A stretch of 39,398 nucleotides of DNA from Candidatus Synechococcus spongiarum LMB bulk15M (GTDB taxonomy: Bacteria; Cyanobacteriota; Cyanobacteriia; PCC-6307; Cyanobiaceae). The position numbers and the translations under genes are program-made. The stretch covers positions 17,376 to 56,773 of the forward strand of contig MWLD01000007.1 of assembly GCA_002018045.1 (NCBI GenBank), written 5' to 3'. Position 1 is the first letter of the stretch. Each line of letters starts with the position of its first letter. Below the pieces are notes generated by a model that saw nothing but the letters and a program-made list of their open reading frames with translations, searched no databases and was not told the origin of the DNA. Shown here piece after piece: positions 3,082 to 29,772 of this stretch.

Positions 3082-4316
3082 GAAACGGTGGACGAAGCCG
3101 GCGTTGTGCCTTGGCTCAAGCGGAGGGTATCCAGAACGGCCCGGGCAGCCCGTCGGGTGACGCCAGGTGTGCCCAATTGGCTGCGCAGACGCCCATAGCC
3201 ATCCAACACCCGCTGACGGGCCATGTCACTGGTGAGCAGGGCATCGCCATGGTCTGCAACGGCAGCAGGGGTCAATGCATTCTGGAGCAGTTCGGGGACA
3301 AGTGGCTCATTCAGCACCAGGTTGACGGGAGAAATAAAAGGAATCTGAAAGTTCAACACATGGCGGGCCACCCAGGCGGTGGGTCGGCTGAGGCGATAAC
3401 CCACCACCTGGGGCACGCCATAGAGAGCCAATTCCAGGTTCACGGTTCCGGATTTGGTCAGGGCAAGATCGGCGGCAGCAAAGAGCTCGGCCTTGCGCTG
3501 GTGCGCCTCCTGAGCATCAAGAACCGTTGCAACGAGCCCTGTGTTCTGCACCTGCTGGCGAATGGTGGGAGCAAAGCTCTGCCGCCCGGCCGGGATGATG
3601 ACCTGCAGCGTTGGGTGGCGTCGCTGGAGCTGCGCCGCTCCCTCCAGCAGGGACGGCAAGAGGTAGCGTATCTCCTGGCTCCGCGAAGCCGGGAGCAGCA
3701 GCAGCAGTTTGCTGTCCTCCTCGAGATTGAGACGCGCTCGGGCAGCAGCGCGCCCGGGGCGACGGACCATGCTGTCCATCAGGGGATGGCCCACCCAATG
3801 CACAACAGCCCCGCACGCCGTGTAAAACTTCGCCTCTTCAGGGAAGACCGCCAGGATTTGATTGCTAAATCCAATCAGTCGTGTGGTGCCCCCTTCCCCC
3901 ATACGAAAGGCCCACTCCTGGGGGGCGATGTAGTAGCTGATGGGTAGATCCGGATCCATCCGTCGCAGCTTGAGACCCAGATTGACGTTCGGGCCCATGT
4001 AGTCGATCAGCACCACACCGTCCAGCCGCACCGTCCTGATCCACCCGTTGACCCGCGCCTGGAGTCGCAGAGTTGGCACCACGAACGGCAAGGTTTCCCA
4101 CAAACCAATGGCGCTCAATGACGTGGTGTCGGCGAGCAGGTGGGCGCCGGCCTGCTCCATCCGTTCTCCTCCGAGAGCATGGATGCAGAGGGGCAGGTTG
4201 CGGGCAGAAGCCTCTTCCCGCAAGGCCTTCACCAACCAACTTCCTTGCAGGTCACCCGAGATCTCTCCTGTGCTAATCAGGAGTTGCAGGGGTGCAGCGG
4301 GAGGGGTTTCAGCCAC
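3078..4316 (-). CDS. lpxB: Lipid-A-disaccharide synthase
   Basis: LpxB is a family GT19 glycosyltransferase. It joins UDP-2,3-diacylglucosamine and lipid X to make the tetra-acyl disaccharide precursor of lipid A at the inner membrane. Visible motifs include LLISTGEISGDLQGSWLVKAL, HALGGERMEQAGAHL, DYMGPNVNLGLKLRRMDPD, YYIAPQEWAFRMGEG, HWVGHPLMD, LLLLPASRSQEIRYLLPSLL and the C-terminal KSGTVNLELALYGVPQVVGYR. I prefer the GTG start at 4316, which overlaps the lpxA stop by 8 bases and puts LLISTGE about 11 residues in, as in relatives. An ATG at 4394 would add 26 Pro-rich residues and overlap lpxA by 86 bases. The stop overlaps the msrA start (ATGA). Confidence 0.93.
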   Translation of the reverse strand: MAETPPAAPLQLLISTGEISGDLQGSWLVKALREEASARNLPLCIHALGGERMEQAGAHLLADTTSLSAIGLWETLPFVVPTLRLQARVNGWIRTVRLDGVVLIDYMGPNVNLGLKLRRMDPDLPISYYIAPQEWAFRMGEGGTTRLIGFSNQILAVFPEEAKFYTACGAVVHWVGHPLMDSMVRRPGRAAARARLNLEEDSKLLLLLPASRSQEIRYLLPSLLEGAAQLQRRHPTLQVIIPAGRQSFAPTIRQQVQNTGLVATVLDAQEAHQRKAELFAAADLALTKSGTVNLELALYGVPQVVGYRLSRPTAWVARHVLNFQIPFISPVNLVLNEPLVPELLQNALTPAAVADHGDALLTSDMARQRVLDGYGRLRSQLGTPGVTRRAARAVLDTLRLSQGTTPASSTVS

Positions 4317-5133
4317 GGGCGGAGGGGAGGGGACCACGGCGCCCTGGGGCAAGGGACTGCTCCATGAAGTGCAAAAAGGTGGCAGCAGGGCCATGCCATG
4401 ATGTGTTGCGCACCTGCTCCAATGCCTGGGCCATGGTCATCTCGCTACGATAAAAAAGCTTCCAGATGTCTTGAAGTTCTTGCAGGTAGGCGGCGCCGTG
4501 AATGCTGTCAAGTCCACTGCGTCGTAGCCCCACCTTGTTGAGCCCCCGCACCCGGGCCGGGTGGCCCTCCACCATGCAATAGGGAGGGATATCCCTGTCC
4601 ACACGGCTCATGCCTCCCACCATGGCCAGGGAGCCAATCTGTACAAACTGGTGAATCCCCAGAGCGCCACCGATCACGGCACTGTCGTGGATACTTACAT
4701 GACCAGCCACTTGCACCGAATTGGACATGACAACTCCATTGCCCAGGGTGCAATTGTGGGCAACGTGACAATAGGCCATGACCAGGTTGCCGTCCCCCAC
4801 CTGCGTCATCTGGCCCTCTTCCGTTGCACGGTTCACCGTGACGTGTTCCCGAAAGGTGTTGCCGTTTCCAATGCGCACCTCCGTATCGCACCCCTGGTAT
4901 TTGAGATCCTGGGGAGCCAGCCCCAGGCAGGCGCCAGGAAACACCCTGTTGTCCCGACCCATGGTGAGACGCCCTTCAAGAACCGCATGGGGGCCAATCC
5001 GGCAGTTGGGACCGACGGTCACCTTGGCGCCAATAACGGTATACGGACCAACCGTGACCCCTGGGGCCAGGGAGGCTTCCGGGTCCACAATGGCGGTGGG
5101 GTGAATTTGTGGCTTGAGAAGGTCCGCCTGCAT
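4309..5133 (-). CDS. lpxA: UDP-N-acetylglucosamine acyltransferase (LpxA)
   Basis: LpxA transfers a hydroxyacyl chain from ACP to O3 of UDP-GlcNAc, the first step of lipid A synthesis. The N-terminal two thirds is a left-handed beta helix of hexapeptide repeats (IHPTAIVDPEASLAPGV, VTVGPYTVIGAKVTVGP and so on). The catalytic His is in YCHVAHNC; the second His, residue 126, corresponds to E. coli H125. The C-terminal helical part contains HPARVRGLNKVGLRRSGL. Its 274 residues fit the family. It begins one base after the fabZ stop, and its own stop overlaps the preferred lpxB start, in the conserved order lpxC-fabZ-lpxA-lpxB. The tail APGRRGPLPSARG is longer than usual and overlaps lpxB. Confidence 0.97.
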   Translation of the reverse strand: MQADLLKPQIHPTAIVDPEASLAPGVTVGPYTVIGAKVTVGPNCRIGPHAVLEGRLTMGRDNRVFPGACLGLAPQDLKYQGCDTEVRIGNGNTFREHVTVNRATEEGQMTQVGDGNLVMAYCHVAHNCTLGNGVVMSNSVQVAGHVSIHDSAVIGGALGIHQFVQIGSLAMVGGMSRVDRDIPPYCMVEGHPARVRGLNKVGLRRSGLDSIHGAAYLQELQDIWKLFYRSEMTMAQALEQVRNTSWHGPAATFLHFMEQSLAPGRRGPLPSARG

Positions 5134-5134
5134 C

Positions 5135-5623
5135 TCAATCCAGAAGAGAAAACATCAGTTCGCCGTCGCAAACCAACTCGCCATCCACAGCGACCCTCCC
5201 CCGCACCTTACTGAAGCGTTGGCGACGGATACTGATGAGTTCGCAACTGATGCGTAGCTGGTCGCCAGGTACGACAGGCCGGCGAAAGCGCACCCCGTCA
5301 ATTCCGGCAAAGACGAACAGCCCTTTGGGGAGGTTGGGCATCTGCATCAGGATCAGGCCACCCACCTGGGCCATGGCTTCCACAATCAGCACGCCAGGCA
5401 TCAGCGGGCAGCCAGGGAAGTGCCCTTGAAACTGGGGCTCGTTGATGCTGACGTTCTTGATGGCTACGGCCCGCTGGCCTGGCACCTGCTCTACGACCCG
5501 GTCCACCAGGGCAAAGGGGTAGCGGTGGGGAAGGAGGTTGAGGATCTGCTCACTGCGCAACTCCTGGCTCAGGGCGTCGGTCCGGGTTGCGTCGGGAGTG
5601 GTGGTGGGGGATGGGGGCATCAT
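5135..5623 (-). CDS. fabZ: 3-hydroxyacyl-ACP dehydratase FabZ
   Basis: FabZ dehydrates 3-hydroxyacyl-ACP in the type II fatty acid elongation cycle. It has a hot-dog fold with catalytic His in [14 protein letters not shown] and catalytic Glu in [27 protein letters not shown] and [15 protein letters not shown] are also diagnostic. The ATG at 5623 gives 162 residues and overlaps the lpxC stop (ATGA). The frame is open further upstream to 5731, but that part overlaps lpxC out of frame and does not look like FabZ. The gene lies between lpxC and lpxA, so acyl chain supply and lipid A synthesis are co-expressed. Confidence 0.96.
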
Positions 5624-11108: not shown

Positions 11109-13516
11109 ATGGACATCCTGAACGTTCTGCTGACTGCGTTGCGGCAGTGGTGGTCGGAGTTCACGCTCCAAGCCAAGTTGCTGGCCCTGTCCACCCTTGT
11201 GGTGAGCCTCATCATGACGGGGCTCACCTTCTTTTCCTTGTCCTCCATCCAGTCGGATGCCCGCCTCAGCGACACCCGTTATGCCCGGGACGTGGGCCTG
11301 TTGCTGGCTGCCAACGTGACGTCCCTGGTTGCGGAAGGGCAGGATCGTCAGTTGATCACCGTAGCCAACCGCTTCTGGCAGCAGAGCAGCAGTATCCGCT
11401 ACATCCTCTTTGCCGACCCTGACGGGGTGATTTACCTGAGCTTCCCCCTCGACAACGTTGATGAGGACAGCACCCTGCTGCTGAGCCGTCGCATGGAGTT
11501 ACCGGACAGCATCTACGACCACCCCGGGAATCCTCTGGTGCGTCAGCACCTGGCCCCTGATGGGCAGGTCACCGACGTGTTTGTGCCCTTGACGGCCAAC
11601 GGGCAAAACCTGGGTGCCGTGGCTCTGGGCCTCAACCCCAATGAAGTGGTTCTCAACACAACAGCGTTAACCCGCAAGGTGACCATTACCGTGTTTATTG
11701 CCATCTGGGTGCTGGTGATTCTGGGGGCTGTCTTCAATGCCCTCACCATCACCCATCCCATCAAGGCACTGCTCCACGGGGTGCGCAAGATCACTGCTGG
11801 CCAGTTTTCTACTCGCATTGCCTTGCCCATGGGCGGTGAGCTGGGGGAGTTACTGGATGGATTTAATGCCATGGCCAGCCAACTGGAAGTTTATAAAGCA
11901 GCCAACATCGAGGAGATGAAGGCGGCCAATAAGGAACTCAAGGTGGCCCAGGCCCAGCAGCAGTCCCTCATTGTGATGGGCAGGTCACCGACGTGTTTGT
12001 GCCCTTGACGGCCAACGGGCAAAACCTGGGTGCCGTGGCTCTGGGCCTCAACCCCAATGAAGTGGTTCTCAACACAACAGCGTTAACCCGCAAGGTGACC
12101 ATTACCGTGTTTATTGCCATCTGGGTGCTGGTGATTCTGGGGGCTGTCTTCAATGCCCTCACCATCACCCATCCCATCAAGGCACTGCTCCACGGGGTGC
12201 GCAAGATCACTGCTGGCCAGTTTTCTACTCGCATTGCCTTGCCCATGGGCGGTGAGCTGGGGGAGTTACTGGATGGATTTAATGCCATGGCCAGCCAACT
12301 GGAAGTTTATAAAGCAGCCAACATCGAGGAGATGAAGGCGGCCAATAAGGAACTCAAGGTGGCCCAGGCCCAGCAGCAGTCCCTCATTGCCACCATGGCG
12401 GATGGGGCCATGCTGCTGGATGCCCGGGGATGTGTGGTGCTGGCTAACCCCACGTCCCAACGATTGTTCCGCTGGGAGGCCCGCAAGCTGGTGGGTGAAC
12501 CGCTGGTGAATCTGCTGCCTGAATCCTTGCTGATGGACGTGGGGGAAGCCCTGCAGCAGGTGTTGGCGGGTGAACATGCCACCCGGGATATCCGTTGTAG
12601 CTTCGGTTCCCCCACCCGCACCTTGCGCATTGTGCTGGTGGCGGTCACGGATCCCAGTAGCAATGCCCTTAAAGGTGTCACCGTCACGCTGCAGGACCTG
12701 AGCCGTGAGGTGGAACTCAATGCAGCCAAAAGCCACTTTATCAGTAACGTATCCCATGAGCTGCGGACCCCGCTGTTCAACATCAAGACCTATGTGGAAA
12801 CCCTTCACGATTTGTGGACACAAATCAGTGACGAGGAGCGCAGCGAATTTCTGGCCACAGCTAATGCGGAAACCGATCGCCTGACTCGCCTGGTCAACGA
12901 CGTGCTGGATCTTTCTCGTCTGGAGTCGGGTCAGGAGTTTCGCTTTGAACCCATGGAGTTGCGCCCGGCCCTGGAGCAGACCCTGCGCAACTACCGCCTC
13001 AATGCGTCCGACAAGGGTGTGCGGCTGCTCTGCGAGGTGGAACCCACCCTGCCACGGGTTCAGGCCAACTTCGATCTCCTGCTCCAGGTGCTGGACAACC
13101 TGGTTGGCAATGCGCTCAAATTCACGCCGTCCGGCGGACTGATTTGCCTCCGGGCCTACCTCTGGCCTGATTCCTGTCCGGTACCCGACGTGAGCACCAG
13201 TGCCACCATCAACGACCTCACCTCCCGGATGCCACGGTTGCGGGTGGAGGTGTCGGATACGGGATGCGGCATGAACGAACTGGATCAAGCCCGGATCTTC
13301 GGGCGATTCTACCGGGCGGAGAACACGGTCCACACAGAGCAGGGGACCGGCCTTGGCCTCGCCATTGTGCGCAACATCATGGAGAAGCAGGGCAGCGTAC
13401 CCAAGCTGGTCAGCAAGCCCGGTGTTGGAACCACGTTCTGGTTTGAACTTCCCTTGGAAGGCAGCGACGACGACGAGTTGGCGCTGCTGGCGGAGCGGGT
13501 CCAGGCGGACACCTGA
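11109..13516 (+). pseudogene. nblS: NblS/Hik33-type sensor histidine kinase, frameshifted by tandem duplication
   Basis: NblS (Hik33, DspA, Ycf26) is the conserved cyanobacterial membrane kinase controlling high-light, nutrient and phycobilisome-degradation responses. The frame from ATG 11109 encodes TM1 (LALSTLVVSLIMTGLTF), an external sensor, TM2 (ITVFIAIWVLVILGAVF) and the HAMP domain, then stops at 12008. A second frame (from GTG 11993 or further in) repeats the end of the sensor, TM2 and HAMP, then continues with PAS (ATMADGAMLLDARG), the phospho-acceptor His in VSHELRTPLFNIK and the ATPase domain (GTGLGLAIVRNIMEK). The cause is a perfect 416-bp tandem duplication. Removing one copy restores one 663-residue frame, a normal NblS length. 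It is followed tail to tail by kaiC after 13 bases. Either a real mutation or an assembly error. Confidence 0.9.
11558..12389 (+). repeat. Perfect 416-bp tandem duplication inside nblS
   Basis: Bases 11558-11973 and 11974-12389 are identical by direct reading, with no mismatch. The bases just outside differ on both sides (11557 is c, 11973 is g; 12390 is c, 11974 is t), so the unit boundaries are exact. As 416 is not a multiple of three, the second copy puts the rest of nblS out of frame. The unit covers the end of the sensor domain, TM2, HAMP and the linker to PAS. Confidence 0.97.
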
Positions 13517-19116: not shown

Positions 19117-19437
19117 TTAAGACTGCTTGGCTGTCAGGAGTGCTTCAACCAGACGATCCAGCTTCTCGTTCAGGGCTCTGTTGTCTTCCCGCTGCTCAGC
19201 CCTGCACTGAGCAAAGCCTTCCTTCACTTCAGTACGAAGTTCCTTCATATCCTGCTGTTGTCTGGCTTCACTCGCCTTCAGGTCAGCCCGGAGTTCGTCA
19301 ATCCGCTTGCCTTGCTCGTCAATCCGTTTACCTTGTTCATCAATCCGTTTACCTTGCAGACCCAGGATCAGCCCCAACACTGCCAGGAAGACACTTGGCG
19401 CAAACCACTGACCGAGTTCAGTAGGGAAGGAAGGCAT
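19117..19437 (-). CDS. Small membrane-anchored coiled-coil protein, unknown function
   Basis: A 106-residue protein from ATG 19437. It begins MPSFPTELGQWFAPSVFLAV with a hydrophobic segment (about residues 11-27) fit for one membrane anchor. GKRIDEQ occurs twice and GKRIDEL once in succession, from a 21-base tandem repeat that includes two near-identical units. A long charged helix ending EKLDRLVEALLTAKQS follows. The heptad-like spacing suggests a coiled coil. The C-terminus matches the relic at 700-1076, so this is one of at least two family members in the window. The frame is open upstream to 19521, inside the right copy of the direct repeat, but the ATG at 19437 starts just before the membrane segment. 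I do not recognise a named family. Confidence 0.6.
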   Translation of the reverse strand: MPSFPTELGQWFAPSVFLAVLGLILGLQGKRIDEQGKRIDEQGKRIDELRADLKASEARQQQDMKELRTEVKEGFAQCRAEQREDNRALNEKLDRLVEALLTAKQS

Positions 19438-20041: not shown

Positions 20042-20079
20042 CCGAGGCGAAGGGGAACGATGTGACCATGGCCAAGAAA

Positions 20080-21286
20080 CGCTCAACGAAGGCCGGGGCC
20101 GAAACCCCAGCGACACCCTTGCTGGCGCCCAGGGCGCCGGTCTCAATGAGGCGCGCTCAACGAAGGCCGGGGCCGAAACCCCAGCGACACTTTTCCGCAA
20201 GCGTGGCAAGTGCTCGGACAACGGGGCGCTCAACGAAGGCCGGGGCCGAAACCCCAGCGACACCCCCCGCAGAAAATCGGACTCCTCACGCACCCGCCAC
20301 GCTCAACGAAGGCCGGGGCCGAAACCCCAGCGACACCATTCCCAGATGGGTGGCGAGGGGCTCAAAGCTGCGCGCTCAACGAAGGCCGGGGCCGAAACCC
20401 CAGCGACACCCGATGGTGCATCCCGCAATGGATGCAGACCGCCGTCGCTCAACGAAGGCCGGGGCCGAAACCCCAGCGACACAGGCACAGCAGATACTGT
20501 TTCTGACCATTCTATACACGCTCAACGAAGGCCGGGGCCGAAACCCCAGCGACACTGGTCAGGCATGTCCAGCGGTCGGTGTGGTGGTCCCTCGCTCAAC
20601 GAAGGCCGGGGCCGAAACCCCAGCGACACCCCCAGCAGAGGAGCTTCTCTCAACGCTTGGGGCCGCGCTCAACGAAGGCCGGGGCCGAAACCCCAGCGAC
20701 ACTTTGCAAGCAGCTAGCGAAACACATGATACAAACGACGCTCAACGAAGGCCGGGGCCGAAACCCCAGCGACACTCCCGAGGCCTTGGAGAACCCGCTC
20801 CCCCTCCTTGGCCGCTCAACGAAGGCCGGGGCCGAAACCCCAGCGACACTTCCAGGAAAGAAGGATCCACCCAGCGGTCAAGCGCGCTCAACGAAGGCCG
20901 GGGCCGAAACCCCAGCGACACGGCAGACGGACGCACGCAGGGAGCCTGATCGAGGGTGCGCTCAACGAAGGCCGGGGCCGAAACCCCAGCGACACACCCA
21001 CTTCGGGGGCAAGTGTCACGTCTGTTATAGCGCTCAACGAAGGCCGGGGCCGAAACCCCAGCGACACTTTTATCAGCCGTCGCCTGATCGTTATCACGTG
21101 AGATCGCTCAACGAAGGCCGGGGCCGAAACCCCAGCGACACCCAGGCGCCAACTCCTGCCATGTCCCTGGCTCACTCGCTCAACGAAGGCCGGGGCCGAA
21201 ACCCCAGCGACACGGCCGCTCTACCAGGGGGCCTGCTCTCCGCCTAAACCGCTCAACGAAGGCCGGGGCCGAAACCCCAGCGACAC
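20080..21286 (-). CRISPR. CRISPR array, 17 intact 37-bp repeats, 16 spacers
   Basis: The repeat on the plus strand is 37 bases: cgctcaacgaaggccggggc followed by cgaaaccccagcgacac. Repeats start at 20080, 20154, 20227, 20300, 20373, 20446, 20519, 20593, 20666, 20739, 20813, 20885, 20959, 21031, 21105, 21177 and 21250. All 17 look identical. Spacers are 35-37 bases and all differ. On the minus strand the repeat can form a hairpin with GGGG and CCCC around the loop TTTCGG, with an outer C-G and a U-G pair; this is a likely processing site for the Cas6-like part of Csb2. The leader lies on the high-coordinate side next to cas2, because the repeat at the low end is degenerate and a promoter is visible at 21392-21421. 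Newest spacers should be near 21249. No spacer visibly matches another part of this window. Confidence 0.98.
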
Positions 21287-21779: not shown

Positions 21780-22796
21780 TCAAGACAGCACAAACGGAGG
21801 ATAAGCGGGAAGGTCACCCCGTAAATGGCGTGCAAGCAATGTGGCCTGAACCGATGGCAGCGCCCACCGCTCCACTGGCCGACCCAGGAGCCGATGCTGG
21901 ATCTCCGCCCCCTTGTGCTCTTCCCATGCGGTCAGCAGTTGCGTACGGCCATCGTCATTCAGATACACACCGCCCCCTGGTGTCTCCTTGAAGCTATCCG
22001 GGTGCAGTTGTCGTCGCCGCACCAGTGACACCACAAAACGGTCGGTTAAAGCACGAAACTCTTCAGCGATGTCGAGGGCAAGGGAAGGGCGGCCTGAGCG
22101 CGGGCGATGAAAGAAACCCATCTGGTGGTCCAGGCCCACGCTCTCCAAGGCGCCGATGCACTCTGTCACCAACAACCCATAACAGAATCCGAGCATGGCA
22201 TTGACCGGATCCCGAGGCGGTCGTCGGCTTCTTGCAGTGAACGGCAACGAGCTCGACGCGAGCGCTTCACCCACCGCCCGGAAGTAGATCCTGGCGGCAT
22301 CACCCTCGATACCGCGCACATGATCACCGGTCTCGGCATCAACAAGGCGGGCGATTCGGGCTCGTATCATTTCACTGCGTTCCGCCAGGCCGTCGCTCTT
22401 TGCCGAGTTCTTTTCATCTCGCGACCAACGGCTAACCACGATCCCGCTGTTTTGCAGTTTGGCCGCCACAATGGCCCTGGAGAGATTCAAAGACCGTGAT
22501 GGGTCCATGGCCGTCTGAAACAATGCACTCCGCAGATGCACGTTTCCACCTGTTGCAGCGTTGACAGTGAAACGGACAGAGCCACCTCTTTTCAAGGCGG
22601 CCACACGCACACCACGCTGAACACAGGCATCAATGGCCTGCATGGTGATCTGGGCGCCACCCAGCACAACCAGGCCATCAATGGCCTCGATGGGAATGCG
22701 CTGGCTTCCTTCCGGTGAAGACACCAACAAGGACCCGCGTCGACACTGCACGCGGGCGCGGTGGCTGCGGACATAGACCGTGTTCAGGTAGCGCAT
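21780..22796 (-). CDS. cas1: CRISPR-associated endonuclease Cas1
   Basis: Cas1 is the integrase that inserts new spacers into the array. The 338 residues have the N-terminal beta domain (IPIEAIDGLVVLGGAQITMQ) and the catalytic helical domain. The metal ligands are visible as Glu164 in RGIEGDAARIYF, His230 in MGFFHRPRSGRPSLALDIAE and Asp242 in the same stretch. In many I-U/I-G loci Cas4 and Cas1 are one fused protein. Here they are separate frames overlapping by 13 bases. The ATG at 22796 gives a complete Cas1. Confidence 0.97.
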   Translation of the reverse strand: MRYLNTVYVRSHRARVQCRRGSLLVSSPEGSQRIPIEAIDGLVVLGGAQITMQAIDACVQRGVRVAALKRGGSVRFTVNAATGGNVHLRSALFQTAMDPSRSLNLSRAIVAAKLQNSGIVVSRWSRDEKNSAKSDGLAERSEMIRARIARLVDAETGDHVRGIEGDAARIYFRAVGEALASSSLPFTARSRRPPRDPVNAMLGFCYGLLVTECIGALESVGLDHQMGFFHRPRSGRPSLALDIAEEFRALTDRFVVSLVRRRQLHPDSFKETPGGGVYLNDDGRTQLLTAWEEHKGAEIQHRLLGRPVERWALPSVQATLLARHLRGDLPAYPPFVLS

Positions 22797-23404
22797 CCGA
22801 AAACCACGTCTTTGAGGTAGCTGCGCACCTTGCGTGGTGCGTTTGCCAACTGTGGAAGACAGTGATGCAGAAGTTGGCAGGCACTGCAGCGTTCGTCATC
22901 CACGGCGGCAGGCAACTGTCCGCTCAGCAGTTGTTCGCGGATCTCCTCGACAATGCCACACACCTCATTGCGCAGTGCTGTGGTGAAATCCACCCGCAGG
23001 CGACGTCTCGGTCCTCCATACCAGACATAGCCGTAAGGGATCTCGGCTTTGAGCATCTCTTCGAGACAGAGCGCCTGGGCACACAACTGGAGGTCGGCTG
23101 TAGGGCCATGCCGCACACCTGCCTTGTATTCCACCGGCCGTATGGCATCGTCCTCAGCGATTTCAACTGCGTCCGCACGCCCGGACAATCCCAGAACCTC
23201 CGACCAGAGTGGAATGCCGCGAAGTACCAACTGTCCCCGTTCACGGCGATGCTTCCCGCTATCGACGCGGCGATGGGCGCGAGTTCCACGGACGGTGTGT
23301 TCGTTGTCGCTCCAAACCCCGTCACAGTGAATCAGCGCACATTGTCTTGGACAGTAGGCAAAGTGTTCGATGGCGGAAATCGGAACAACGAGTTCAACAC
23401 TCAT
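22784..23404 (-). CDS. cas4: CRISPR-associated exonuclease Cas4
   Basis: Cas4 is a RecB-like nuclease with an iron-sulfur cluster that trims prespacers and selects for the PAM. From ATG 23404 the protein is 206 residues: MSVELVVPISAIEHFAYCPR, with QC next, and the nuclease core GRADAVEIAEDDAIRPVEYK (Asp and the E-x-K pair). The C-terminal CSACQLLHHC completes the four cysteines with the N-terminal CPRQC. The ATG overlaps the preceding stop (ATGA), and the C-terminus overlaps cas1 by 13 bases, so the adaptation genes are tightly coupled. The frame upstream of 23404 overlaps the Cas8-like gene and is not part of Cas4. Confidence 0.92.
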   Translation of the reverse strand: MSVELVVPISAIEHFAYCPRQCALIHCDGVWSDNEHTVRGTRAHRRVDSGKHRRERGQLVLRGIPLWSEVLGLSGRADAVEIAEDDAIRPVEYKAGVRHGPTADLQLCAQALCLEEMLKAEIPYGYVWYGGPRRRLRVDFTTALRNEVCGIVEEIREQLLSGQLPAAVDDERCSACQLLHHCLPQLANAPRKVRSYLKDVVFGCAT

Positions 23405-24309
23405 AGCCGCTCGGATCCATAGCCCCTCGTGGGATCGTTCGTGCTCAGGGCTTCGTATCTGGCGCTCCGCCAAGCGGCATGCACACCAAAGCGCTGACAT
23501 CGTTTTTGCCTGTCCGGATTCCACAGATCCAACAGATCCAGAAGAGCATCGATACTGTGAACATCCAGGGGCTGCTGCCATGCCGGCCAGTGAAAGCGGG
23601 GGGCTCCCCGAGAATTAGCCGGTTTCCGCCATCCTCGCTGGCGTCCTCCCTCACCAGAGGTCCTGGACCCAAGCCGACCATCTACTCCGGGACCACGCAT
23701 GGGCAGCAGGGAGAGTCCGAAAAACGTCATCACTTCCACAACGGGGTCTGTGTAGATATCTGTTTTATCTGCCTGCGAGCCGATCCTCGCCGGATCAAAA
23801 CCGAGTCCGTTTCCTTTCACCCTCGGCGCCTCACCCACTAGCGAAGCCCGGATCCGCTGCACCGAAGGTTGTTTCACATGGTTATGAGTCTTTAGCAATC
23901 GATGGTGCAACCACTTGATCGTGCCTGGACCAGAAGGATCAAAGGGTGCATGTGCGACTTCTCCGTCCTTGTCTACGCTCAGATCGGTCATTGTTGATGA
24001 CAGTGTCCATGCATGGGGATGACTCCTTGTCGCTTGCACCCGTTGCCTGAACGAATCGACCGGAACCTTCCGCTGGAGCTCTCCCGTCCCCTTCCGTTGT
24101 TCGGCTATTGGCAGATCCTCCAGTAGCGCTTGCTTCGGCCAGGATTCCGCTAGAGCATCCACGGGATCACAATCGGCCGCTGAGAGAACTGCCAGATGAT
24201 CGCTTGTTGTCCAGTGCAGCCGAATCCGAGGATCAAGGACGGTCGCTCCGATGGCGGCAAGCCAGCCATTGATCCAGAAAGCCGGTAATCCCTGGCAGAT
24301 CACTTCCAT
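23401..24309 (-). CDS. Csb3/Cas8-like large subunit of the type I-U (I-G) effector
   Basis: This 302-residue protein lies between cas3 and cas4, where I-U/I-G operons carry the Cas8-type large subunit (Csb3, also called Cas8u2/Cas8g). The N-terminus MEVICQGLPAFWINGWLAAI, with GATVLDPRIRLHW after it, and the central DPVVEVMTFFGLSLLPMRG resemble the helix motifs I associate with the Csb3/Csx17 group. The family diverges fast and I cannot align it fully. Its expected role is PAM recognition and holding the target in the Cascade complex. Its ATG overlaps cas3 by 10 bases and its stop overlaps cas4 by 4. The alternative is a Csx17-type protein, but that is usually about twice as long. Confidence 0.65.
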   Translation of the reverse strand: MEVICQGLPAFWINGWLAAIGATVLDPRIRLHWTTSDHLAVLSAADCDPVDALAESWPKQALLEDLPIAEQRKGTGELQRKVPVDSFRQRVQATRSHPHAWTLSSTMTDLSVDKDGEVAHAPFDPSGPGTIKWLHHRLLKTHNHVKQPSVQRIRASLVGEAPRVKGNGLGFDPARIGSQADKTDIYTDPVVEVMTFFGLSLLPMRGPGVDGRLGSRTSGEGGRQRGWRKPANSRGAPRFHWPAWQQPLDVHSIDALLDLLDLWNPDRQKRCQRFGVHAAWRSARYEALSTNDPTRGYGSERL

Positions 24310-27149
24310 GAGCCTCTCCTCCCATTCATGCTGCCCGACACGGCGTGATCCGAGCGGATGACGATCGCCTCAAGCAGCGCCAGTCCCCAGGGTCCAAAGT
24401 AATCGTTGAGCCGTCGGAAACGGGCTGGCTGATCCCAGTCGATCCTGGCCAGATCGGCTGAAGCCTCAACGGCAACTCCCGCAACCACACCACGTACACG
24501 TTCTCCTGTGCCGTCGGCTGCTGGCGGCACAATGGGCCTGCCTTTACCGTGGTGACTGATCACCAGATGCACCAGCAGGTCCCGCTCAATGGGAGTACCC
24601 CAGTCGGGTTGTTGCTGCAGCCAGGCAAGCACCAAGCGGGCTGAAAGGTCCTCGTGACGCCCACCGCGGGGCCACCCGGATCGAATGCGCATGGCTTCCC
24701 AGCGATGACGCGGTGTGTCCGACTTGGCCATGGCCACGCCATTTGTATCTTCAGGATCCAACCAGAGCTGAAAACGCCGGTCGGCCTTGCCAATGTCGTG
24801 CAGACAGGCGGCAAACCGAACCACCTCACATAGGCCCGCTGGCAGCCCAACCTGTTCGGCAACCATCCGTGACTGGTCACCAACCGCCTGTCCGTGTCCA
24901 TCAAGCGTTGCCAGCGTTGGATCCGGATGGTGCAATGACGCCACGAGCGAGTTCTCGTCAAAGTCGCCAATGGGGGTTTCTCCTTCCGGCTGCGGCCTCC
25001 CGACTTTCAGCCTGGCTACTTCCCTGCGGGATTCCATGATTTCCGGCTTGAGGGAATTGGTGAAGTCACTCCATTCCACTGGGTCCCAGCCCTGCGGGGT
25101 CTCGACAGCACGGATTGCCTTGAGGATGTCGATAATTGCCTGGTGTTTTTCGCTTTCATCCATCTCGTCAATTTCATCATCTTCAGTACCGAGAACCTTT
25201 TTGATTTCACTGGTGAGATCAATGTCGCATAACCGCTTGATTGCTTTCTCGTCGAGGGGGAGTCCCTGGCCGGCCAGAGAAACATCCACCACCGGGCCAG
25301 TCGCGTCAGCGTCCCAGCCGAAGTTGTCCAGGAGACCACGGTCTGTGGGCAGTACGATGCGGTCGCCGGGACGAAGTTCGGCTTTTCCTATCAGTGGTTC
25401 CATTGTGACGCTGTCGCTCCCAAGGCGATGAATGATCTCGTCATCGTTCAAAACAGCCTTGAGCTCATTGATCGCTATATCTACTGCTTCCCGGTCCTTC
25501 GCCCGTGGCCACAAACGCCGACCGGGTTCCGGCACATGGACCCGCCAGATCACCGAGACGGTGTACTGCGGGCTCGCTATCCCACTGAAGTAGGGCTCGA
25601 CCGGTGCTTCTCCCTCGGGGGGCGTGGTGGTCTTGACCCATTCCCACAGAATTCCCGGTAACACTTCAGGTGCGCGACCAGGGGCATCGCCGGGCGGCCC
25701 CAGCACGTCAGCCACCCGCCGTGGGGAAAGGTTGATCATTCCATCAGGTGTTGCTGGGCATTGTTTGAGCCGTTGGAGTACGCCTGCAGGCTCCTCGCCA
25801 TACACCGGCCACACGGTCTCTGTTTTTTCTTTGCCTCCGCGACGTTTCCCCGGGGGCAAATGAATGTAGAGAGCACGGGCATCTGCGTAGTTCCCGAGTC
25901 GGTTCAGCCGGCCGAGGCGCTGGGTGAGTGCGCGAACACCACAGGCTTCGGTGATCAGGTATTCCGCATCAAGATCGGCCCCCACCTCCAGGGTCTGGGT
26001 TGCCACAACCACCAGATGGCGCTCACGAGGGGTAGTTGCAGACCGCGTTGCAGCCATTCCATGGTCGGGATCAACGATGTGCTTGCGGATGCACTCGGCT
26101 TCCTGTTCCCGCGTCAGGCCGGTGAGGAGTTGTGGTGGATCCATCGGTATGGAAGTTTTTTTGCTTTTTCTGGTCTTCGCCTGCTTCTCGAGGCGATTGA
26201 ACACCTGGCGTGCGGTCTTCGGGGTGTTGGCAAACACCAGGAACGATGCTGGGCGGCTTGCTTCGTCCATCAGACGAATCGTTCCATCAACCAGATGACG
26301 TGCGATATCCCCGGATTCTTTAACCTCCAGGTCCAGCCGCTTGGTTGCGTCCAGTCGTTGCCGGATCACCCCATGACGTTGATCGTCATCGTCCAGATCA
26401 AAGCGGCTCTTGCTGGCAGGATCACCAGTGGCTGTCAGCGTTACCACTGTTGCTGTTGACCGTTGGCTGTTCAGCAGTGGCTGCACACCGGGCATGCACT
26501 CGCCCAGGGCGCCCGTCAGTGATCGCAGATGGGGCGCCAGATGCGCCTCGTCAAGCAGCACCAGGCTGTCGGTCCCGGCCATGGCAGCGTCCACCGCACG
26601 GAGGCTCGACCCGTAGCCACGGAACAGCAACCGTGAACCGTACATGGGCAACGTACACAGAATCACGGTGGGACAGGATGGATCGGTGGGCGTCCGGGAG
26701 GCAATGCCACCCCGCAGGGAGATCACCTTGAGGGGTGGTTCACCACGGCCAGCCGAGAGGGAGCACAGCCGCTCGGCCACCATGGCAAGAGCGTCTGAAT
26801 CTGGTGTCTTGTTGCCTTCTGAACTACTGCTGTTCCGGAAAGCGTCCAGTTTCTTTGCGAGTCGCTCGGCTTGTTCCGCCGTCGAATCCACCAGCAGTCG
26901 GCGGTTCACCACCCACCATATCCGTGTTGGGGCGGTTCGTTCCTCCGGTGTACGGTCGGCTTGCGAAGCCAGCCACCAGATCGCGATCTCAAGGCAGGCC
27001 GTCTTGCCCATTCCCGTTGGCACACCGATCTCGTCAGGCCAGCTCTCATTCGCGGCAACATCCCTGGCGAGGCGGTCCTGCCACGGAAAGGGGTCGCGGT
27101 CGTTGACCGCCCGATAGAACTCCGGGAAGGTGGGCAGGGGTGTTGTCAT
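24300..27149 (-). CDS. cas3: CRISPR-associated helicase-nuclease Cas3 (C-terminal HD, subtype I-U/I-G)
   Basis: Cas3 is recruited by the effector and unwinds and degrades the target DNA. The 949 residues have a superfamily 2 helicase first: Walker A in GVPTGMGKTA (about 42-51), the DEAH box in LVLLDEAHLAPHLRSL (200-203), TLTATGDP and a C-terminal helicase domain (TQTLEVGADLDAEYLI, RALTQRLGRLNRLG). The HD nuclease is at the C-terminal end: FAACLHDIGKADRRF (His784, Asp785) and VISHHGKGRP (866-867). In most type I systems the HD domain is N-terminal; a C-terminal HD is a known mark of the I-U/I-G Cas3. The start overlaps the csb2 stop (ATGA). Confidence 0.96.
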   Translation of the reverse strand: MTTPLPTFPEFYRAVNDRDPFPWQDRLARDVAANESWPDEIGVPTGMGKTACLEIAIWWLASQADRTPEERTAPTRIWWVVNRRLLVDSTAEQAERLAKKLDAFRNSSSSEGNKTPDSDALAMVAERLCSLSAGRGEPPLKVISLRGGIASRTPTDPSCPTVILCTLPMYGSRLLFRGYGSSLRAVDAAMAGTDSLVLLDEAHLAPHLRSLTGALGECMPGVQPLLNSQRSTATVVTLTATGDPASKSRFDLDDDDQRHGVIRQRLDATKRLDLEVKESGDIARHLVDGTIRLMDEASRPASFLVFANTPKTARQVFNRLEKQAKTRKSKKTSIPMDPPQLLTGLTREQEAECIRKHIVDPDHGMAATRSATTPRERHLVVVATQTLEVGADLDAEYLITEACGVRALTQRLGRLNRLGNYADARALYIHLPPGKRRGGKEKTETVWPVYGEEPAGVLQRLKQCPATPDGMINLSPRRVADVLGPPGDAPGRAPEVLPGILWEWVKTTTPPEGEAPVEPYFSGIASPQYTVSVIWRVHVPEPGRRLWPRAKDREAVDIAINELKAVLNDDEIIHRLGSDSVTMEPLIGKAELRPGDRIVLPTDRGLLDNFGWDADATGPVVDVSLAGQGLPLDEKAIKRLCDIDLTSEIKKVLGTEDDEIDEMDESEKHQAIIDILKAIRAVETPQGWDPVEWSDFTNSLKPEIMESRREVARLKVGRPQPEGETPIGDFDENSLVASLHHPDPTLATLDGHGQAVGDQSRMVAEQVGLPAGLCEVVRFAACLHDIGKADRRFQLWLDPEDTNGVAMAKSDTPRHRWEAMRIRSGWPRGGRHEDLSARLVLAWLQQQPDWGTPIERDLLVHLVISHHGKGRPIVPPAADGTGERVRGVVAGVAVEASADLARIDWDQPARFRRLNDYFGPWGLALLEAIVIRSDHAVSGSMNGRRGSWK

Positions 27150-28564
27150 TGGTCACCCTCCCCCCGATCACGCGGCACACAGAGCCCGAAGCCCCGCTGA
27201 CGTCCGGCGCCAATAACCACCGGGCCGGCTACAGGCTCGGCAAAGCACAATTCCACGTGCGAGTAGGGGAGCCCGGGCCTTCCTGGTCGGTTCACCTCGA
27301 TGGGCGCCAGGTCCAATGCGCCAGGAACGAGGGGTGTGCGCGATGAACGGAAGGCAACCGGCTCCGGAAGTCCTGCGTGTTGGCACCAGCGCGTCAATTC
27401 CAGGAGGTCAAGGGTACGGCGCCGCTCGTGGATGGCCGGGAAAGCTGTTGCCCAGAGACGGGATGGGTACGTCCACCGTTGCGGATGGGCTGCAAACGGG
27501 CGCCGCTCGTCGTCATCACGGGGAGCAACAGCAACATCAATGCCCCTGCCGACGAGACGACGGATGGAATGGGCGGCATCCCGCGCCTGGCGGCGAGGTG
27601 CCCCGTCGGAACCCGGTGGCATCCAGAGCGCCAGTCCGTAAATTCGACCACGGGAGTGCTCGTAACCCACATCCGGAAGTGCATAGTAACGGGTAATCTC
27701 GTAGCCCTGGCTGCCGCAGCCATGGCCATGGAGGATGCCGGGGGGATCGCCGTGGATCCGCTGATGTTGACTCAACACCGCTTCCTTGAAACACCGTGTC
27801 AAGGAACTGATGCGGCGCCCTGAAACAGCAGTGCCCAGGCGGAGCCACGCCACCACCTCTCCCCTGTCAACCGGTTGGGGTGCATCGGGTGAGCGATAGG
27901 GTACGTTGTGCCGCAGGGAAGGAAATTGCAGCCGAGCGACCGCCGCACCGCGCTCACACCACTGGTCGTACATCCTGTCCAGGGTCTTGATGTCGCCCGG
28001 CTGGGCAACACTGATCACGGCATCACCTCCCTCTTCCGGCACGAAGATCTGTTCCGGACAATTCGGGGGCATTTGCGTTGCAACACGTATACGCACCGGC
28101 GAGTCGGATGTACCGAGATAGCCAACCCGTGCAGCGCGTAACTTCAACGCCACAAGCGTTGTTGCGGAGGGCGGTTCCACGTCCCAGCAATAAGCCACAC
28201 GGGGCTGGCGCAACGCAACCCGAACGCCTGGGCGGCTGAGTGTACTCAATCGGGCAACGTACTCCTGGTGTGTTCTGTTGGCTGGCCCCGTGGCGTTCTT
28301 CACGACATATCGATCCAGGAGCGGTTGGTGGTAGACCTGTGGACCCGCATGGATGTGCGGTGGTGGCAAACGCTCGAACCACTCCAGTTCAGAGCCGTCT
28401 GTGACCCGGCAGCGCTGCCGGGTGCCGTCTGCGGCAACCAGAGCCGCAAACAACCGGGAGGCAGACGGCGGCCATTCCCCATGGCGCAGTTGGCCAGTAT
28501 TGGCTGTCCCATCGGGATCCGCACGAAAGGTTCCATGCAGGAACTCCACGGAAACGGTAAACAT
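27146..28564 (-). CDS. csb2: Csb2 (GSU0054 family), Cas5-Cas6-type protein
   Basis: Csb2 is the signature protein of subtype I-U/I-G. It combines Cas5-like and Cas6-like RAMP domains in one chain and is expected to bind the crRNA 5' handle and process the pre-crRNA. The 472 residues start MFTVSVEFLHGTFRADPDGT. The N-terminal half has GEWPPSASRLFAALVAAD, and RPGVRVALRQPRVAYCW follows. The C-terminal half ends in a Gly-rich RAMP loop, VIGAGRQRGFGLCVPRDRG. Its ATG shares one base with the csb1 stop (TGATG) and its own stop overlaps the cas3 start. The family call is firm from the N-terminus and gene context. Confidence 0.92.
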   Translation of the reverse strand: MFTVSVEFLHGTFRADPDGTANTGQLRHGEWPPSASRLFAALVAADGTRQRCRVTDGSELEWFERLPPPHIHAGPQVYHQPLLDRYVVKNATGPANRTHQEYVARLSTLSRPGVRVALRQPRVAYCWDVEPPSATTLVALKLRAARVGYLGTSDSPVRIRVATQMPPNCPEQIFVPEEGGDAVISVAQPGDIKTLDRMYDQWCERGAAVARLQFPSLRHNVPYRSPDAPQPVDRGEVVAWLRLGTAVSGRRISSLTRCFKEAVLSQHQRIHGDPPGILHGHGCGSQGYEITRYYALPDVGYEHSRGRIYGLALWMPPGSDGAPRRQARDAAHSIRRLVGRGIDVAVAPRDDDERRPFAAHPQRWTYPSRLWATAFPAIHERRRTLDLLELTRWCQHAGLPEPVAFRSSRTPLVPGALDLAPIEVNRPGRPGLPYSHVELCFAEPVAGPVVIGAGRQRGFGLCVPRDRGEGDQ

Positions 28565-29772
28565 CAGTCAGCCAGCTCCGGCCATGTGGAAGAGACAGCT
28601 TTCTTCAGGTTGTCCTTGGGCAACAGAATGGTGGGCGACTGGCCCCAGCCATGCAGCGGCACGCCAGCCGATTCGGCATACGAACGGACGGATTCCAGCA
28701 AGGCTTGGGTGTTGTTGGCGTTTCCAGGTTCGCACTCTTCGTCCGCGTCTGCTCCCAGCCAGGTGAGGACAGTTCTCCTGGGCCTTAACGCCGCACCTGA
28801 GCGCAGGAAAAACCCACGCCCGAAGGCCAGTTGGTGGGCACGCAATCCGAGCGCCACCAGCAGTGCCCGCATCGCTGTATCTGCATCAGCCTCCTGTCCG
28901 AGGCTGAGCCGCCGTAACTGGGCAAAAGACAGGGTTGCCCGTTGCGTAATACGGGAGAACGAGACAGGCGCCAGCGCAGCATCCTTGTCCGTGAACGGCA
29001 CCTGCCCATGGCCAATATTGGATAGCTTTTCCTTCTTCCTCTTCGTATTCTTGCTGTCAGAAGCCTTGCTGCCAGTACCAATATCCCATTTCATTTGATC
29101 GTCTACGTTCACACTCACGGTCTCCTCAATGCTCAGGTTCAGTGGATCTCCCTTCACACCGAAGGTCCGGGTCTCCGTTGATGCCGGTTGCCAACCGATG
29201 ATCTCGGACACCCAGGCGCGAGCATGCTTCGTGTTTGCCCGCTTCTTGCCCAGGTGAGACTGCCAGAACCCGTAGAGCAGCGCCTGCGGGAACCAGGCCA
29301 CCAAAGCACCGCAATTCTCAGCCGTCGCGGCGAAAATCGACTTGCCGAGTTCTGTGTTGATAAAGTCTTTTCCGTTCAATGTGGCATCACGTAGATAGGC
29401 GTCCCCATTGCGGTGCGGAAATTGCAGGCTTGACAACTGCCTCGGCAGGTGGGCTGGTAGATGGGCCAGATCAGACAGATCGAGCACAAGCTCAGGTATG
29501 GCAATAGCAGCGCGATGACGACGCAGGGCCTCCTCCAGGCGGTTGGCCTGTGATGGCACGTTGTCAATGACGATCACATCCGTCGGCTCTGCAGTGTCCG
29601 GGGTGGCCCATCGACGATCCAACTGATAGGTTCCACCGGCATAGGTCGCTGGCTTGACAGGGCCGCCAGCGCCGGCAAGCGGTTCAAGCTCTACGTCGAT
29701 GCGAATACCAGCGTCGAAGGATTGCTCTGCGCAACCGTGGAGCAATGCGTCGAGGTCAAGGTTTCGGGCCAT
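28564..29772 (-). CDS. csb1: Csb1 (GSU0053 family), Cas7-type backbone protein
   Basis: Csb1 is the I-U/I-G version of Cas7, expected to form the repeated backbone along the crRNA. The 402 residues begin MARNLDLDALLHGCAEQSFD. Characteristic parts are the VKPATYAGGTYQLDRRW stretch, DNVPSQANRLEEALRRH, PHRNGDAYLRDATLNGKDF, and FGRGFFLRSGAALRPRRTVL near the end. A Lys-rich loop (about residues 235-255, KNTKRKKEKLSN) is present. It is the first gene of the cas operon; the 474 bases upstream separate it from the divergent mnmE. I see no strong promoter there. Confidence 0.92.
   Translation of the reverse strand: MARNLDLDALLHGCAEQSFDAGIRIDVELEPLAGAGGPVKPATYAGGTYQLDRRWATPDTAEPTDVIVIDNVPSQANRLEEALRRHRAAIAIPELVLDLSDLAHLPAHLPRQLSSLQFPHRNGDAYLRDATLNGKDFINTELGKSIFAATAENCGALVAWFPQALLYGFWQSHLGKKRANTKHARAWVSEIIGWQPASTETRTFGVKGDPLNLSIEETVSVNVDDQMKWDIGTGSKASDSKNTKRKKEKLSNIGHGQVPFTDKDAALAPVSFSRITQRATLSFAQLRRLSLGQEADADTAMRALLVALGLRAHQLAFGRGFFLRSGAALRPRRTVLTWLGADADEECEPGNANNTQALLESVRSYAESAGVPLHGWGQSPTILLPKDNLKKAVSSTWPELAD

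Follow-up and report, generated by a model that had tools for sequence, protein, structure and literature searches.

A perfect 416-bp tandem doubling that breaks nblS in a draft "Candidatus Synechococcus spongiarum" genome is probably an artefact of assembly or amplification

The sensor histidine kinase of cyanobacteria called NblS, Hik33 or DspA carries HAMP, PAS, HisKA and HATPase domains in that order within one whole frame. The locus described here resembles it in this order of domains and differs from it in that the frame is broken by a doubling, in this assembly only. It lies in a window (the whole stretch of DNA analysed) of 39,398 nucleotides from "Candidatus Synechococcus spongiarum" LMB bulk15M, which is part of contig 33 of a draft of 84 contigs (1.5 Mb, 74% complete) whose contigs contain internal runs of N. 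From our reading of the translations, a purD-like gene lies upstream of nblS and a kaiC-like gene downstream, which we take to be the arrangement around NblS, Hik33 and DspA elsewhere. The doubling itself can be compared with two kinds of described event. Natural small bacterial tandem duplications also have directly abutting copies, but they usually form between short homologies, of which there are none at this join. Duplications that arise in drafts by assembly or amplification are like the one seen here in having perfect abutting copies, in occurring several times per assembly, in being absent from relatives and in the company of N gaps. A difference within this second kind is that blunt joins are unusual among chimeras made by phi29 polymerase (PMC5372508).

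The features of the locus, in coordinates of the window, are as follows:

11109..13516, forward strand: whole nblS locus as assembled, a frame of 663 residues when one copy is left out
11109..12008, forward strand: upstream open reading frame of 299 residues, whose N-terminal sensor and HAMP parts run into an out-of-frame tail up to the TGA at 12006
11558..11973, forward strand: first 416-bp copy, covering the end of the sensor region, the second membrane helix, HAMP and linker
11974..12389, forward strand: second 416-bp copy, identical and directly abutting, with the join at 11973/11974
11993..13516, forward strand: downstream open frame of 507 residues from GTG 11993, predicted to hold one membrane segment, HAMP, PAS, HisKA and HATPase

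TRF run on the window reports positions 11558-12389 with a period of 416, 2.0 copies and 100% match. A script confirmed the identity of the copies and their exact borders: the first copy is preceded by CTGGCCCC, both copies begin with TGATGGGC and end in CTCATTG, and CCACC follows the second. Two adjacent identical copies of 416 bp had been claimed within nblS from the letters alone, and both analyses bear this out. The doubling is the longest exact repeat of the window (the runners-up are 42-nt CRISPR matches), and the identity of its copies is far beyond chance. Because the doubled unit is not a multiple of three (416 mod 3 = 2), the frame of nblS is shifted, and the first in-frame stop past the junction is the TGA at 12006-12008. 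With a single copy the script recovers an uninterrupted frame of 663 residues, in agreement with the sequence-only reading, which had expected an intact kinase of this length once one copy was removed. That reading had also described the two-copy form as a 299-residue sensor plus a possible second product with one membrane segment, HAMP, PAS and kinase; the open frames are laid out as it described, the products themselves being predictions.

Its assignment of the gene to nblS holds as well, since both pieces have NCBIfam NF045911 (NblS) as their top match, at 401.2 bits and 674.4 bits. The two pieces were scanned separately and each is partial, so their scores fall, as expected, below the cut-off of 1000 bits that applies to the whole protein. 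A domain scan finds HAMP in the upstream piece, and HAMP, PAS, HisKA and HATPase_c, in the order of NblS, in the downstream frame. NblS had further been said to be essential in Synechococcus elongatus; no statement on essentiality was found in the portions available of the literature on NblS, including PMC13421787.

The locus could be taken at face value, with both frames translated and both the split sensor (299 aa) and the shorter kinase (507 aa) functional. The downstream frame is indeed open from GTG 11993 and so laid out that it overlaps the stop of the upstream frame at 12008; it retains a membrane segment, HAMP, PAS and kinase. However, both open frames arise automatically from the doubling of an open frame, GTG 11993 has no clear ribosome-binding site in front of it, and the layout is seen in no relative. 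We regard a functional split protein as highly improbable.

Among named relatives the kinase was found in "Candidatus Synechococcus spongiarum", in further drafts of that genus and in a single Aphanocapsa feldmannii. The 416-bp segment is single-copy in all nine congeners and in A. feldmannii, and the stop-to-stop frame around the kinase measures 660 to 713 residues at nine of these ten loci. In the SH4 draft (L010, around 4001-5499) the nblS frame is shorter, at 612 residues between stops. A search for the 26-nt junction that tolerated as many as three mismatches found it in none of 39 other genomes of relatives. Comparison with related strains had been proposed as a check on the doubling, and its outcome, single-copy throughout with the junction in none of the 39, speaks for an artefact and against a reversible on/off switch. 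In such a switch, recombination between the 416-bp copies would restore nblS, and the stress response would become phase-variable. Perfect direct repeats of 416 bp are able to recombine in principle. However, relatives have only the single-copy form and never the two-copy one, and like doublings occur at unrelated places in the same draft (contigs C18 and C63, listed below). The switch would moreover be one-way, because losing a copy is easy, while to our knowledge there is no route by which a single copy would give rise to the identical blunt duplication again. The sequence-only reading had offered a very recent event, a reversible switch and an assembly artefact as its three options; of these the artefact is now favoured, and the switch, for which nothing speaks beyond the identity of the copies, is extremely unlikely.

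The draft was scanned for further doublings over 0.83 Mb of non-N sequence in sampled stretches, with the following results:

L052 1032-2353 (contig C18): doubling of 661 bp, perfect, abutting, with 0 bases shared at the join (blunt)
L160 1181-3748 (contig C63): doubling of 1283 bp with 2 mismatches, abutting, with about 2 bases shared at the join
L073 9493-9840 (contig C54): doubling of 187 bp at 98.8%, the copies separated by a piece with a 28-nt inverted repeat
L162 17928-18500 (contig C67): hli-like (high-light-inducible) genes in a 214-bp array with about 2.4 units

The 661-bp doubling has an AAA ATPase gene on one side and a class-V aminotransferase gene on the other. That of 1283 bp duplicates part of an apparent transporter operon, creating a fused long frame, and its region matches as one copy in all four congeners that hold it. 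The inverted piece in C54 forms a palindrome of 55 nt. The 214-bp array was dropped as another doubling, being a hli-like gene array common to congeners; it is probably natural, because congeners share its sequence, and in two congeners contigs stop within the hli region.

The same scan found no abutting doublings in 0.40 Mb of one closed genome of the family, and none in 1.01 Mb of congeners, a control that is biased, because short-read assemblers tend to collapse or break at tandem repeats and their assemblies thus tend to lose them, an example being the congener contigs that stop within the hli region. A repeat in one congener (L109; 354/414 bp, 60-bp spacer, 99.4% identity) was rejected as an abutting doubling. 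With three events, all in the source draft, the contrast in rate has a p value of about 0.05, and with four events, the hli array included, of 0.02; the contrast in doubling rate between draft and controls is thus modest.

If the sequenced cell or strain had truly undergone a recent tandem duplication, nblS would be broken or a split product left, and the variant would be transient, either neutral or harmful, and removable by recombination between the copies. The perfect copies and clean junction are consistent with such an event, a true tendency to duplicate could lie behind the presence of several doublings in one genome, and the 2 mismatches between the 1283-bp copies suit a somewhat older true event. 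The hli array common to congeners further indicates that the draft can hold true tandem repeats. However, the nblS junction is blunt and without microhomology, the event would disrupt a kinase kept in nine of nine congeners, and the draft's further doublings suggest that all have a shared technical origin. A Ku gene was searched for in this genome, which is incomplete, and none was found, so the blunt joins lack that natural explanation. On this evidence a real, recent duplication appears rather unlikely. With 0 differences in 416 sites the divergence of the copies is bounded at <0.7% (95%), and copy identity alone is a weak clock for the age of the doubling; if the doubling is an artefact, this identity is silent on age. 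It seems very unlikely that the duplication is both real and fixed, so that the NblS of this sponge symbiont would be split or truncated in the course of genome decay. A real doubling would mean that a symbiont carries a broken form of a photosynthesis regulator that ranks among the most conserved.

We consider that the 416-bp doubling in nblS is probably an assembly or amplification artefact, since the draft has more large doublings and none were found in the control sequence, the junction is blunt, and the relatives are single-copy. Two assembled pieces overlapping by 416 bp in an intact nblS may have been joined end to end and left unmerged; alternatively, the assembler may have traversed a chimeric amplified molecule as a loop. 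The cell's own gene would then be an ordinary single-copy one, encoding a 663-residue NblS sensor kinase. Blunt joins, as found in the 416- and 661-bp doublings, are expected if overlapping ends were stitched; by our computation about half of all random joins would have no base in common. Unmerged overlaps across the N gaps of the sampled draft were looked for, and none were seen, a result that counts against the artefact. Drafts of "Ca. Synechococcus spongiarum" have been produced by multiple displacement amplification (sorted cells, phi29) and SPAdes, reaching about 1.5 Mb and at most 80% completeness (PMC5408123), and by analogy an amplified source is plausible for the present draft. The joins of phi29 chimeras, as measured on inverted chimeras, have a short overlap, mostly of 3-13 nt, which was lacking in just 0.4% of those examined (PMC5372508). 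The overlap at 11973/11974 is 0 nt, and this blunt join makes it less likely that a phi29 chimera alone caused the doubling. Because the draft holds several large doublings, that in nblS serves as a warning that broken genes in this draft are not readable as pseudogenes without a read check.

Elsewhere in the window, three 21-bp tandem repeats (TCGTCAATCCGTTTACCTTGC) lie at 19295-19357 with 88% matches. They are followed at 20059-21286 by a CRISPR array whose 17 repeats are each about 37 nt long, with a period of about 73. The adjoining cas genes, on the reverse strand at 21780-29772, match Cas1, Cas4, Cas3g, Cas5/6g and Cas7g, and Cas8g weakly; judged by these matches, array and genes together are a predicted type I-G (formerly I-U) system.
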